Assembly: GCF_003258945.1 (NCBI RefSeq)
Contig: NZ_QLIX01000001.1
Span: 558,001-622,000 of the forward strand
Direction: 5' to 3'
Length of the DNA: 64,000 nucleotides
Source: Roseicella frigidaeris
GTDB taxonomy: Bacteria > Pseudomonadota > Alphaproteobacteria > Acetobacterales > Acetobacteraceae
Numbering within the stretch: the stretch's first letter is position 1; the number at the start of each line of letters is the position of its first letter. The notes beneath the pieces were generated by a model, which had not been told where the DNA came from, did not search any database, and saw only the letters and a program-made list of their open reading frames with translations. Of the stretch, positions 1,986 to 6,271 are shown one piece after another. A program made the translations under genes and the position numbers.

Positions 1986-2267
1986 GGACGGTTCCCCGTT
2001 GTTTCCACGACACCATAACGATGTCGCGTGCCGCACGAGACCATGCGGAGTTGCCGCATTGCAAGCGCCCCGCTCGGCCGGGAATGCGGAATCCGGGCGG
2101 CCGATCCGAGGCTGCATTCCCTGTCCGTCATGCAACGGCAAGCTCCGCGAAATCCGCTGATGGCATCTGGGCCAGGACCCGCTCACCCGGCTTCGCGGAC
2201 CATGGTCCAGCGTGTCATTCGAGCGCGCGATTCGCGCCTTCGGTGAGTCGGGCTCGGCGGTCACGCC
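1986..2267. other. Intergenic region upstream of the quinoprotein operon
   Basis: This 282-bp stretch separates the quinoprotein start from the end of the UdgX gene, both on the minus strand. It must hold the quinoprotein promoter. I see no convincing ORF, hairpin or operator. Confidence 0.4.
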
Positions 2268-3785
2268 CTAGGCGCCGGGGCGTTCCGCCATCTCCCGCGC
2301 CGCGGCGAGGTCGGCGACGAAGCGGGCATATTCGCGCTCCTTGCCGGCGGGGTCGGGCAGGCGCAGCAGGTAGGAGGGATGCACGGTCGGAAAGATGCGG
2401 AAGCCCTCCGGCGCCTCGATCACCTCGCCCCGCACCCGGGTGATGGCGAGAGGCTTGCCGGTCAGCGCCCGCAGCGCCGTCGCGCCGAGCGAGACCACGA
2501 GGCCCGGCGCGACCAGCTCGATCTCCCGCTTCAGGAAGGGCCGGTAGTAGGTGATGTCGCCGGCATCCGGGGATTGGTGCAGGCGGCGCCGGCCGGTCGG
2601 CTTGAATTTGAAATGCTTCACCGCGTTGGTGACGTAGGCGGCGCTGCGGTCGATCCCCGCCTCGGTGGCGGCGCGGTCGAACAGCCGCCCGGCCGGGCCG
2701 ACGAAGGGCCGGCCGGCAAGATCCTCCTCGTCGCCCGGCTGCTCGCCGATGAACATCAGCGCCGCGCCGAGGGGGCCTTCGCCGAAGACCGGCTGGGTGC
2801 TGGCCGCCGTCCAGGAGGGCAGGTCGTTGCGGCCCATGAGCTCGGCCCGCAGCGCGGTGAGCGCCGCGGCCGGGTCCTCGATGCGGGAGAAGAGATCGGC
2901 TGGCATGGTCTCCGCAACGTCCGGGAGGGGCATTGGCTGCACCGGCCTGGATGGCGGGCGCTGGCGCCGTGCGGCCGGCGGGGCCGCGCCGCGGGCCAGC
3001 ATCCCGGCCACGCGCTGCGGCGCCTCGGCGATCAGGCGGGGGATCTCGCGCGCTTCCGGCAGGTTGCGCCAGTACTTCACCGGCATCTCCGCCCGCATCG
3101 CCGCCGGCTTCAGGCGGGCGGGATTGAAGACGCTGCGGTAGTAGGCGCGCCAGAGCTCCTCATGGGCATCCTCGGCCGGCGCCTCACGCCGAGTCCCGCC
3201 GGGGCCCATGCGCAGCGTCTCGCCATCCCAGTGCGCACTGGCCTCCGGCGTCAGGATGGACCAGCGCAGCCCGGCGAAGCGCCGGATGAAGAAGCCCGTC
3301 TCGGCTTCGAGGATGTGGTGGTCGGGCTCGAACCAGGCGACGTAGTGCGCCGCCGGGCCAGCTTCGCCTGGCGCCTCGGTCCCGACGCAGCGGAAGCGGA
3401 GGAAGGCGTGCATCTTGTGGGCGTCGCGCCGCACCGCCCGCACCATGGCGGAGAGGCGGAGGATGTCCGGATCCGTCGCCACCTGCAGCAGCCCCGGCTC
3501 GCCCCGCGCCAGCCGCCAGAGCAGGCGGTAGAGCAGGGCGAAGCGGTCCGGGTCGCGGTGGCGGATGGCGGTTTCGGCGGCCTCGACGAAGCGGCGCGGC
3601 ACGCTGGCCGTCAGCGGCGCCGTCTCCGGCACCCGATCCCGGGCGAAGAGCGCCGGCGCCTCGCCGGCCACCCGCCAGGCCACCGCCGCGGGCGGCAGAT
3701 CCGCCGCCAGCAGGCACCGCGCCTGGGCGCGCCAGGCGGGAAAATCCGCCGGCCCGGGCAGCGGCGCGTCGATCCGGCCGGTCAG
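2268..3785 (-). CDS. udgX: DUF4130-UdgX fusion, uracil-DNA-glycosylase-superfamily repair protein
   Basis: About 505 residues if translation begins at CTG 3785, which overlaps the TGA of the upstream radical SAM gene (CTGA). GTG at 3683 is the first conventional start but would cut off 34 residues that look like the family's N-terminus (PGPADF then AWR). Numbering from CTG, residues 1-270 are the DUF4130 'DNA metabolism' domain and 300-505 are UdgX-like: GEQPGDEED at 347-355, the crosslinking loop RRRLHQ with His403, and TVHPSYLLR near 467-475. UdgX binds uracil DNA and becomes covalently attached through that His (family knowledge). Odd points: Arg replaces the usual Lys in KRRIH, and the UdgX half has no cysteine, so the usual 4Fe-4S ligands are missing. 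It is operonic with the radical SAM gene. Confidence 0.85.
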   Translation of the reverse strand: MTGRIDAPLPGPADFPAWRAQARCLLAADLPPAAVAWRVAGEAPALFARDRVPETAPLTASVPRRFVEAAETAIRHRDPDRFALLYRLLWRLARGEPGLLQVATDPDILRLSAMVRAVRRDAHKMHAFLRFRCVGTEAPGEAGPAAHYVAWFEPDHHILEAETGFFIRRFAGLRWSILTPEASAHWDGETLRMGPGGTRREAPAEDAHEELWRAYYRSVFNPARLKPAAMRAEMPVKYWRNLPEAREIPRLIAEAPQRVAGMLARGAAPPAARRQRPPSRPVQPMPLPDVAETMPADLFSRIEDPAAALTALRAELMGRNDLPSWTAASTQPVFGEGPLGAALMFIGEQPGDEEDLAGRPFVGPAGRLFDRAATEAGIDRSAAYVTNAVKHFKFKPTGRRRLHQSPDAGDITYYRPFLKREIELVAPGLVVSLGATALRALTGKPLAITRVRGEVIEAPEGFRIFPTVHPSYLLRLPDPAGKEREYARFVADLAAAREMAERPGA

Positions 3786-5038
3786 AGCAGCACCATCTGG
3801 CGCGGCCGCGCCGCCGCGGCCAGGCCGCCTCGCGGCGCCAGCAGCCGCCGCAGATCGGCGCGGTCGAGCAGGCCGGCGCGCGGCTGCCGGTCGGCGGTGA
3901 CGAGGAAGGGCAGCAGCTTCGCCAGCGGCAGGCGCAGCCGCGCCAGGTCGTCAGTGCGGATCGCCCGCTGCCGGCGCGTCGAGAGCAACTTCTCGACCGT
4001 GCGCGTGCCGAGGCCGGGGACGCGCAGCAGCATCTCCCGCGGCGCGCGGTTGACGTCGATGGGGAAGCGCCCGCGATGCTTCAGCGCCCAGGCCAGCTTC
4101 GGATCGAGGCCGAGATCGAGCATGCCGTCCTCGCCGCCCGCCAGGATCTCCTCCAACTCGAAGCCGTAGAAGCGGAGCAGCCAGTCGGCCTGGTAGAGGC
4201 GGTGCTCGCGCAGCAGCGGCGGCGCCTGCGGCGGCAGCGTCGCCGAGGCGTCGGGGATCGGCGAATAGGCGGAGTAGTAGACGCGGCGCAGCCCATAGGC
4301 CGCGTACAGCGTGGCGCTGGCGCCCAGCACGGCCCCGTCATCGGCGGCATCGGCGCCGACGATCATCTGGGTGCTCTGGCCGGCGGGGGCGAAGCGCGGC
4401 GGCGCGGCGCGGCCGGCCTCGCGGCCCGCCTCGCGCGCCTCATCGATCCTGAGCCGCAGGCCGGCCATGGCGCGGCGGATGCCGGCGGCGTCCTTCTCGG
4501 GCGCGAGCCGCCGCAGGCTGGCCTCCTGCGGCAGCTCGACATTGATGGAGAGCCGGTCGGCCCATCGCCCGGCGCGGGCGAGCAGCTCCGGCGCCGCATC
4601 CGGGATGGTCTTGAGGTGGATGTAGCCGCGGAAGCCGTGCTCCTCCCGCAATTGGCGGGCGACCTCGGTGATCTGCTCCATCGTGTAGTCCGGGGAGCGG
4701 ATGATGCCGGAGGAGAGGAACAGCCCCTCGATGTAGTTGCGGCGATAGAAGTGCAGCACCAGCGTCACCAACTCGCGCACCGTGAAGCGGGCGCGCGGCA
4801 CCTGCGAGGAGGCGCGGTTGATGCAATAGGCGCAGTCGAAGAGGCAGGCGTTGGTCAGCAGCACCTTGAGCAGGGAGATGCAGCGCCCGTCCGGGGCATA
4901 GGCGTGGCAGATGCCCATGCCCTCGGTGCTGCCGATCCCGCCCTCGCGGCTGTCGCGCGTCTCGGTGCCGGAGGAGGCGCAGGAGGCATCGTATTTCGCG
5001 GCGTCGGCGAGGATCTCGAGCTTGCGGCGCAATTCCAT
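3782..5038 (-). CDS. Putative DNA modification/repair radical SAM protein
   Basis: A 418-residue radical SAM protein. The CX3CX2C cluster motif is C65-C69-C72 (ACLFDCAYC). A C-terminal helix-hairpin-helix, around VPGLGTRTVEKLL, suggests DNA binding. This architecture fits the family often named 'putative DNA modification/repair radical SAM protein', which is usually encoded next to a DUF4130 protein. The reaction is not known. The start at 5038 gives the expected MELRRKLEILADAAKYDASC N-terminus. A LexA-type box 51 bp upstream implies SOS induction. The downstream udgX fusion overlaps its stop codon, so the two are translationally coupled. Confidence 0.87.
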   Translation of the reverse strand: MELRRKLEILADAAKYDASCASSGTETRDSREGGIGSTEGMGICHAYAPDGRCISLLKVLLTNACLFDCAYCINRASSQVPRARFTVRELVTLVLHFYRRNYIEGLFLSSGIIRSPDYTMEQITEVARQLREEHGFRGYIHLKTIPDAAPELLARAGRWADRLSINVELPQEASLRRLAPEKDAAGIRRAMAGLRLRIDEAREAGREAGRAAPPRFAPAGQSTQMIVGADAADDGAVLGASATLYAAYGLRRVYYSAYSPIPDASATLPPQAPPLLREHRLYQADWLLRFYGFELEEILAGGEDGMLDLGLDPKLAWALKHRGRFPIDVNRAPREMLLRVPGLGTRTVEKLLSTRRQRAIRTDDLARLRLPLAKLLPFLVTADRQPRAGLLDRADLRRLLAPRGGLAAAARPRQMVLL

Positions 5039-5088
5039 GGATCGTTCCGGCCTCGGGGCATCCGCGGGCGCTGCGAGGCCGGCGGATT

Positions 5089-5103
5089 GTTCACTATATG
5101 TTC
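5089..5103. promoter_or_regulatory. LexA (SOS) box of the alphaproteobacterial type
   Basis: The + strand reads GTTC at 5089-5092, seven bases (ACTATAT), then GTTC at 5100-5103. GTTC-N7-GTTC is the LexA site known from alphaproteobacteria. It lies 51 bp before the radical SAM start in an AT-richer patch of an otherwise very GC-rich divergent region, as expected for an operator overlapping a promoter. The divergent PanE-like gene begins 104 bp away and could also be affected. Confidence 0.8.
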
Positions 5104-5206
5104 TCAGATGCCCGCCTGGCAAGCCCCGCCCGCCGCCTCCGGCCCGCGGATTGCGGCACCTGCAACCCAGGGGCATCATCGCCCGGAATTCGGGAAGGAA
5201 TGCTCC

Positions 5207-6271
5207 ATGGGCAATCGCATCGCCATCATCGGCGCGGGGGCGGTCGGCGGCTATGCCGGCGCGCATATGGTTCAGGCGGGCGAGGACGTCACCTTCGTCG
5301 ACATGTGGCCGGAGCATGTCGAGGCGATGCGGCGGGACGGGCTGCGCATCACCCATATCCGCGACGTGCCCGAGTTCACCGTGCCGGTGCAGGCGCTGCA
5401 TCTGACGGAGCTGCAGCAGGTCTCCAAGCAGCGGCCCTTCGACATCGCGTTCATCTGCGTGAAGTCCTACGACACCGCCTGGGCCACCACGATGGTGAAG
5501 CAGTACCTGGCGCCGGGCGGCTTCTGCGTCTCCCTGCAGAACTGCATGAACGAGGAGACCATCGCCGGCATCGTCGGCTGGGGCCGCACCCTCGGCGCCA
5601 TTGCCTCCTCCATCACCGTCGAGCTCTGCGAGCCCGGGCATGTGCGGCGCGCCTCCGGCAAGGGCGGGGCGGCGCATACCGTCTTCCGCGTCGGCGAGGT
5701 GCATGGCCGCATCACCGACCGGGCGCAGGAGGTCGGCCGGCTCTGCGCCCTCTCCGACAGCTGCGTGGTCACCGCCAATCTCTGGGGGGAGCGCTGGTCG
5801 AAGCTGGTCACCAACGCCATGGCGAACGGCCTTTCCGCCTGCACCGGGCTGATCAGCCGCGAGATCCTGCTCGACGACACGCTGCGGCAATTCACGGCCC
5901 GGCTCGGCAGCGAGGCGATCCGCGTCGGCCAGGCGCTCGGCTATTCGCTGGAGGAGGTGCACCACCTCGACCCCGAGATCATCGCCCGGGCCGGCGAGGG
6001 CGATGCCGAGGCGCGCCGCGCCTATGACGAGCACCGCATCCGGGAGGCGAACAAGCCCGGCGGCGGCGCGCATCGCCCCTCCATGGGCCAGGACATGGTG
6101 AAGGGCCGCCGCACGGAGATCGAGTTCCTGAACGGCTTCATCACCGACCGGGCGCAGGAGATCGGCCTCGCCACGCCGGCCAACGCGGCGCTGACCGAGA
6201 TCGTGAAGCGGGTCGAGAAGGGCGAGTTGCAGCCCGACCCGCAGCACATCAAGGCGCTGCGGCTGAACTGA
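5207..6271 (+). CDS. Ketopantoate reductase-family (PanE/ApbA) dehydrogenase
   Basis: A 354-residue NAD(P)-dependent 2-dehydropantoate 2-reductase-family protein. The N-terminus has the Rossmann motif GAGAVGGYAG at residues 8-17. The second half has the ApbA C-terminal helical domain, including WSKLVTNAMANGLSACTG with the catalytic-type lysine. The start at 5207 follows GGGAAGGA at 5192-5199. It is divergent from the repair operon and 73 bp ahead of a Bug receptor gene. Length exceeds typical PanE (about 300 residues), and many alphaproteobacterial paralogues act on other 2-oxoacids, so the substrate is open. Confidence 0.82.
   Translation: MGNRIAIIGAGAVGGYAGAHMVQAGEDVTFVDMWPEHVEAMRRDGLRITHIRDVPEFTVPVQALHLTELQQVSKQRPFDIAFICVKSYDTAWATTMVKQYLAPGGFCVSLQNCMNEETIAGIVGWGRTLGAIASSITVELCEPGHVRRASGKGGAAHTVFRVGEVHGRITDRAQEVGRLCALSDSCVVTANLWGERWSKLVTNAMANGLSACTGLISREILLDDTLRQFTARLGSEAIRVGQALGYSLEEVHHLDPEIIARAGEGDAEARRAYDEHRIREANKPGGGAHRPSMGQDMVKGRRTEIEFLNGFITDRAQEIGLATPANAALTEIVKRVEKGELQPDPQHIKALRLN

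Follow-up and report, generated by a model that had tools for sequence, protein, structure and literature searches.

The window analyzed here, a stretch of 64,000 nucleotides from Roseicella frigidaeris (contig NZ_QLIX01000001.1, positions 558,001 to 622,000), carries on its minus strand a gene for a radical SAM protein followed by a gene for a fusion of DUF4130 with UdgX, a member of the uracil-DNA glycosylase (UDG) superfamily, both behind a perfect LexA-type box. LexA control of this operon is strongly supported by the sequence comparisons described below. Our preferred reading, to which we give a probability of roughly 0.6, is that of a LexA-controlled two-gene repair operon in which the radical SAM protein and DUF4130 would act as one DNA-modifying enzyme, with UdgX as an accessory. 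The radical SAM-DUF4130 pair stands behind differing damage-type operators in several lineages, with or without UdgX, which makes its tie to DNA damage firmer than a single box could. With the likely core, the accessory and the residues for mutation now named, its reaction becomes accessible to testing in an alphaproteobacterium.

The predicted LexA operator, GAACATATAGTGAAC, is a perfect GAAC-N7-GAAC direct repeat at 5103-5089 (minus strand), upstream of the radical SAM gene and separated from its ATG at 5038 by 50 bases. Scanning positions 2150-5300 for promoters returned only one sigma-70-like match (shuffle mean, 0.1), a predicted TTGCCA-18-TATAGT element at 5093-5122 on the minus strand, the -10 hexamer of which (5098-5093) lies inside the box. 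By itself a perfect match says little, since the whole genome (5.82 Mb in 87 contigs) contains 55 such sites versus 40 for a reversed control. Under a spacer matrix built from nine other sites of the genome located before SOS-type genes, however, with the window's own site left out, this site ranked 4th of the 55, with ranks 1 and 3 taken by sites without an assignable SOS gene. The intergenic region holding the box is shared with a divergent gene (5207-6271), ketopantoate reductase-like by the look of its sequence.

The genes beside the GAAC-N7-GAAC sites of this genome, examined in 20 stretches, included lexA (TIGR00498, 167.5 versus 110.95 bits, with the site GAACCTATCTAGAAC upstream), two ImuA-like genes, uvrA/ssb, uvrC, a ligase-associated DEXH helicase gene, a ribonucleotide reductase gene and parE. 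The ImuA matches were below the NCBIfam cut-off, and several other site-adjacent genes were cut fragments that likewise scored below theirs. Two sites lie in front of a second radical SAM gene, of the PA0069 family. Other sites had no obvious SOS gene beside them; four good-scoring ones were inspected by eye and none was assigned.

The box is retained in most orthologs. Within the family Acetobacteraceae, 61 of 150 genomes matched the radical SAM model TIGR03916, 58 of them over its cut-off (own genome included), and a perfect box was present within 100 bp upstream in 43 of these 58 loci (own locus included), compared with a mean of 0.145 loci and a maximum of 1 after shuffling. Thirty-seven of the boxes are in gene orientation and 6 in the opposite one; the remaining 230,294 bases hold only 2. 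In samples of the class and of the phylum, TIGR03916 matched 22 of 240 and 46 of 249 genomes; 12 and 39 of these passed the cut-off, counting our own genome and with three genomes common to both samples. The analysis covered each of the 46 distinct over-cut-off loci other than our own (L088), tblastn matches below 150 bits being excluded. A perfect GAAC-N7-GAAC, sought within 200 bp upstream in these samples and in a scan of named loci, preceded 34 of the 35 other alphaproteobacterial loci. Among the best 80 loci of the named scan, it preceded 66 of the 69 that were alphaproteobacterial or class-unassigned, L156 and L191, whose titles give no class, being grouped with the alphaproteobacteria. 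The locus sets overlap (L053 and L136, for instance, sit on equally long contigs), so that their counts must not be added. The original prediction of a perfect LexA-type box upstream of a radical SAM gene and a DUF4130-UdgX fusion thus holds in position and content, and the link to DNA damage that it drew from the box is strongly backed by sequence; absence of the box from orthologous operons, which it had named as grounds for abandoning the idea, is not what the orthologs display.

In other lineages the operon follows other operators. Eleven loci belong to the phylum's other classes, and 8 of them carry CTGT-N8-ACAG, the E. coli-type LexA box; among the remaining three, L135 has a one-mismatch form and L115 has GTCTCA-N5-TGAGAC. 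The seven Burkholderiales loci among the best 80 of the named scan comprise four with an exact CTGT-N8-ACAG and three with one-mismatch forms that end at the start codon. At the Burkholderiales loci L155, L173, L184, L190, L199 and L209, the LexA-type box runs right up to the start codon and in several cases encloses a TATATT-like -10, a hint that the transcript is leaderless. A verrucomicrobial scan yielded TIGR03916 matches in 56 of 145 genomes, eight of them over the cut-off, and TGTTC-N4-GAACA lies near the start in three of these eight. Since different damage-type operators precede the operon across lineages, damage control of the radical SAM-DUF4130 unit, with or without UdgX, looks real and repeatedly rewired.

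A further operator candidate emerged from xanthomonad orthologs. L115, L144, L151 and L166 lack the tested LexA boxes, and all four have a perfect palindrome, GTCTCA-N5-TGAGAC, at -39. This palindrome occurs twice in the L144 genome, three times in that of L151 and once in that of L166. It was found in at least 41 of 60 genomes of the family to which L151's genome belongs, with a reversed control giving 0 of 60. Eighteen genomes of that family bear TIGR03916; there, the palindrome before the radical SAM gene is exact in 11 (within L343-L360), has one mismatch in five and has more in two. Among the matches listed, 76 palindromes were classified, one duplicate locus (L338) being dropped: 25 precede a DEAD/DEAH helicase gene, 13 the radical SAM gene and 9 mraZ, while single or paired palindromes precede recA, uvrA, rmuC, dnaB, cas3, cas9 and DUF763 genes, and further ones precede other genes. 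One protein of each of the named gene kinds was checked in Pfam; for dnaB and mraZ, the distance from site to gene reaches about 220 bp. Besides the loci where it stands upstream of the radical SAM gene, the palindrome is present at L219, L221, L222, L280, L305, L310, L312 and L341. The palindrome is therefore a candidate damage and defense operator. A different sequence, TTAG-N6-TACTA, which we take to be a xanthomonad LexA site, had no match in the scan of named loci, the sole set scanned for it. Neither the breadth of operator switching nor the palindrome was met in the literature searched, and for the palindrome a word search of its half-sites cannot prove absence from print.

Both genes belong to recognized families. 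The radical SAM gene (3782-5038, minus strand) encodes a protein of 418 amino acids that matches TIGR03916 (rSAM_link_UDG), which we take to be equivalent to COG4277, with 547.6 bits against a curated cut-off of 343.5. This was its only NCBIfam match at an E value of 0.001, and only the general Radical_SAM model passed the cut-off in Pfam; neither database placed it in the SplB family. Its closest named relatives, among the best 80 loci of the named scan, are those of Siccirubricoccus deserti (82 percent), an uncultured Acetobacteraceae bacterium (80) and Belnapia (79). The downstream gene (2268-3785, minus strand) encodes 505 amino acids, with a TIGR03915/DUF4130 domain at 3051-3749 (202.8 bits, cut-off 112.25) and a TIGR03914 UdgX domain at 2301-3044 (270.1 bits, cut-off 189.95), and with DUF4130 and UDG matches in Pfam as well; the locus thus passes all three curated cut-offs. 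In this gene no ATG, GTG or TTG codon occurs before 3683, and the domain match begins earlier. For this reason, and because the locus L066 of the same genus has GTG where the window has a CTG overlapping the radical SAM stop codon (TGA, 3782-3784), translation most likely starts at CTG 3785; L136 and L014 have GTG at this place too.

The two-gene arrangement recurs widely. A DUF4130 match accompanies 177 of 186 TIGR03916 loci, and seven of the nine without one have less than 800 bases of DNA after the radical SAM gene. DUF4130 starts within 30 bp of the radical SAM stop, overlaps counted, in 143 of the 177. The 186 loci divide into 123 closed DUF4130-UdgX fusions, 19 open fusions, 29 with a closed DUF4130 and no UDG match, 4 with an open DUF4130 and no UDG match, 2 with a UDG match outside the same frame and the 9 without DUF4130, so that closed and open fusions together make DUF4130 and UdgX a single polypeptide in 142 of 177 loci. 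The 29 loci lack a UDG match in the DNA examined, UdgX elsewhere in these genomes not having been searched for; 13 of them have at least 700 bp and 8 at least 2 kb after the DUF4130 stop. Twenty-three carry an exact damage-type operator, and those that combine such a box with at least 2 kb of following sequence include L170, L175, L176, L207 and L209. The core thus seems to consist of the radical SAM protein and DUF4130, while UdgX is a fused addition in most, though not all, of the relatives examined. Since UdgX is optional, the core should have a lesion of its own, and UdgX would be a helper.

The same optional status is consistent with the strongest alternative, in which the two activities share nothing except their regulation: UdgX would shield uracil or abasic sites arising from SOS polymerases or from nucleotide-pool imbalance, and the radical SAM-DUF4130 pair would deal with another lesion. 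PMC8565304 suggests that UDGs take part in the SOS response to deal with misincorporation by the polymerases that it induces, and in the window genome ImuA-like genes and a ribonucleotide reductase gene are also located behind GAAC-N7-GAAC sites. Against this stands the single polypeptide formed by DUF4130 and UdgX at most loci, which favors a shared site of action. We regard separate lesions as possible, and as clearly less probable than a joint function.

UdgX carries an iron-sulfur cluster, and the structurally solved UdgX that served for comparison is presumably that of M. smegmatis. As described in the available part of PMC10359453, its motifs include GEQPG and an R-loop whose histidine has a covalent role. 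The window domain likewise has GEQPG as motif A, an R-loop ending in histidine (RRRLH, residues 399-403, encoded at 2577-2591 on the minus strand, with the presumed covalent His403) and HPS as motif B, and its best match in the PDB had an E value of 7.9e-45. It differs in being fused behind DUF4130 and in lacking the cluster cysteines: 97 of the 123 closed fusions retain all three cysteine columns, 1 retains them in part and 25 have lost every one, among them the window protein, where R319, L322 and Y414 take their place. This loss and the probable CTG start set the window protein apart from its TIGR03914 relatives. All 123 closed fusions retain R401, 122 retain H403 and 117 retain GEQPG; on the strength of the first two, UdgX chemistry probably persists. 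In DUF4130 itself, a dense set of residues is invariant in 20 sequences, including H123, R130, E153, W175, W212 and N221.

In the radical SAM protein, the CxxxCxxC motif (C65, C69 and C72; codons at 4823-4846, minus strand), presumed to ligate the radical SAM 4Fe-4S cluster, is invariant in 104 of 104 sequences. Three further cysteines, C20, C44 and C53, within the stretch encoded at 4880-4981 (minus strand), are equally invariant, bringing the number of invariant cysteines to six, and their conservation suggests that they hold a second iron-sulfur cluster. The verrucomicrobial scan also returned a diverged, TIGR03916-like subfamily (L251-L272, 260-296 bits), which we treated as distinct. C44 and C53 are missing in all 22 of these homologs and C20 is kept; no DUF4130 match was present in the stretches examined, and L259 has a UDG match. 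Because the two cysteines are absent where DUF4130 is not seen, they may belong to DUF4130-linked chemistry; their loss may represent a single evolutionary event. Selenocysteine was suspected from in-frame TGA codons in verrucomicrobial relatives and was rejected, as the stops fall either at the edges of the matched stretch or among the few residues that precede it; L255 has one internal TAG.

Residues 325-357 of the radical SAM protein (3968-4066, minus strand) resemble a helix-hairpin-helix and are likely to contact DNA. The matches to PF12836 (15.3 bits) and PF14520 (15.6 bits) are both below the cut-off of 27, for which reason DNA as the substrate stays a matter of inference, and the PDB matches of the protein were weak, being to RuvA/ComE-type proteins for this segment (E values of 0.02-0.41) and also to HydG/HydE-type maturases. 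The latter would suit an enzyme that modifies protein or RNA, for instance in the maturation of DUF4130 or on tRNA, and that is linked to repair only through UdgX. This is a doubtful explanation given that 23 of the 29 loci without a UdgX match in the DNA examined still have an exact damage-type operator. Less likely still is a cycle in which UdgX cross-links itself to abasic DNA and the radical SAM-DUF4130 enzyme uses radical chemistry on the sugar to free or process the cross-link. In its favor, the covalent histidine and the R-loop arginine are kept in the fusions, the genes are tightly coupled and DUF4130 is fused to UdgX, and PMC10359453 offers, as a proposal only, RecA-dependent pathways or proteases to resolve UdgX-DNA complexes. 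Against it, the radical SAM protein and DUF4130 occur at 29 of 177 loci without a UdgX match in the DNA examined (UdgX elsewhere in these genomes not having been searched for), 23 of them with an exact operator and eight extending at least 2 kb past the DUF4130 stop.

In the repair operon that we favor, LexA would sit over the -10 element and leave upon DNA damage, de-repressing the two genes together with imuA, uvrA/ssb, uvrC and the second radical SAM gene of the genome. Anchored to DNA through its helix-hairpin-helix segment and equipped with a second iron-sulfur cluster on C20, C44 and C53, the radical SAM protein would act with DUF4130 as one enzyme to alter a damaged base or dimer by radical chemistry. 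UdgX would then remove uracil left at the site and use His403 to cap the abasic sugar, which replication or recombination repair would later clear. The scheme would suit pyrimidine dimers in which a cytosine was deaminated before the dimer is reversed, leaving uracil, because a uracil trap would be most useful there. A bolder version of this reading would make the radical SAM-DUF4130 enzyme an undescribed class of radical DNA repair with a second iron-sulfur cluster that directly reverses dimers, with UdgX capturing the uracil so that reversal fixes no C-to-T change, and with the unit placed under whatever damage operator is at hand in more than one phylum, the xanthomonad one included; taken as a whole, we consider this unlikely.

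Several observations weigh against the preferred reading. A perfect box is missing from 15 of the 58 family loci, eight of which have a one-mismatch site at -48 to -15 (a figure without a chance estimate), from the alphaproteobacterial locus L079, and from L140, L143 and L183 among the best 80 of the named scan. None of the tested boxes was found at L101, one of the 11 loci from other classes, or at five of the eight over-cut-off verrucomicrobial-scan loci, and TGTTC-N4-GAACA is only modestly specific, with 12 matches versus 5 for the reversed control in the L200 genome. On the side of the enzyme, the second cluster is conjecture based on residue conservation, another cysteine stands at position 22 in the diverged homologs that lack C44 and C53, L245 keeps both residues without a DUF4130 match in the DNA examined, and the helix-hairpin-helix scores are subthreshold. 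A sequence search of the PDB with DUF4130 gave one match, at an E value of 0.2, and no convincing relative. As for UdgX, its optional status argues against an obligatory hand-over from lesion to uracil, and it is not the sole UDG-superfamily gene of the genome, which has four such matches including the fusion.

SOS control of UDG operons as a class is not new. PMC8565304 describes a COG1573-COG4277 operon in Bacteroidetes with evidence of SOS-type regulation, and it notes that a UDG-based repair system had earlier been reported to be under SOS control in Alphaproteobacteria and in Verrucomicrobia, citing a Verrucomicrobia LexA paper and a Caulobacter SOS regulon paper. Like our locus, that operon places a UDG-superfamily gene in a two-gene unit with evidence of LexA-type regulation; unlike our description, the available text does not name DUF4130 and gives no reaction for COG4277. 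The pairing of the families, which the original prediction had called known, is indeed on record: PMC3765255 connects DUF4130 to uracil DNA glycosylases and to radical SAM proteins of the SplB-like kind, and it was the only source in the literature searched to combine at least two of UdgX, radical SAM and DUF4130. Given these reports of SOS-linked UDG operons and of the family link, the operon is a further case of a known type. SplB and the PA0069 family are also radical SAM proteins linked to SOS, but they belong to other NCBIfam families, whereas TIGR03916 proteins have the three extra invariant cysteines and the DUF4130 partner.

Neither protein of the operon matched a PADLOC defense family at an E value of 0.001. 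The TIGR03916 search also matched Caulobacter vibrioides among the control genomes. At 7 of the 186 loci (L083, L156, L158, L162, L186, L201 and L214), a hemerythrin-like gene, confirmed as PF01814 for L158, is located between the radical SAM gene and the DUF4130-UdgX gene; its product perhaps guards oxygen-sensitive clusters. The radical SAM gene was also found on two IMG/VR viral contigs (L216 and L217), which are probably host DNA within the viral set; one of them has a hemerythrin-like gene as well as a LexA-type box.

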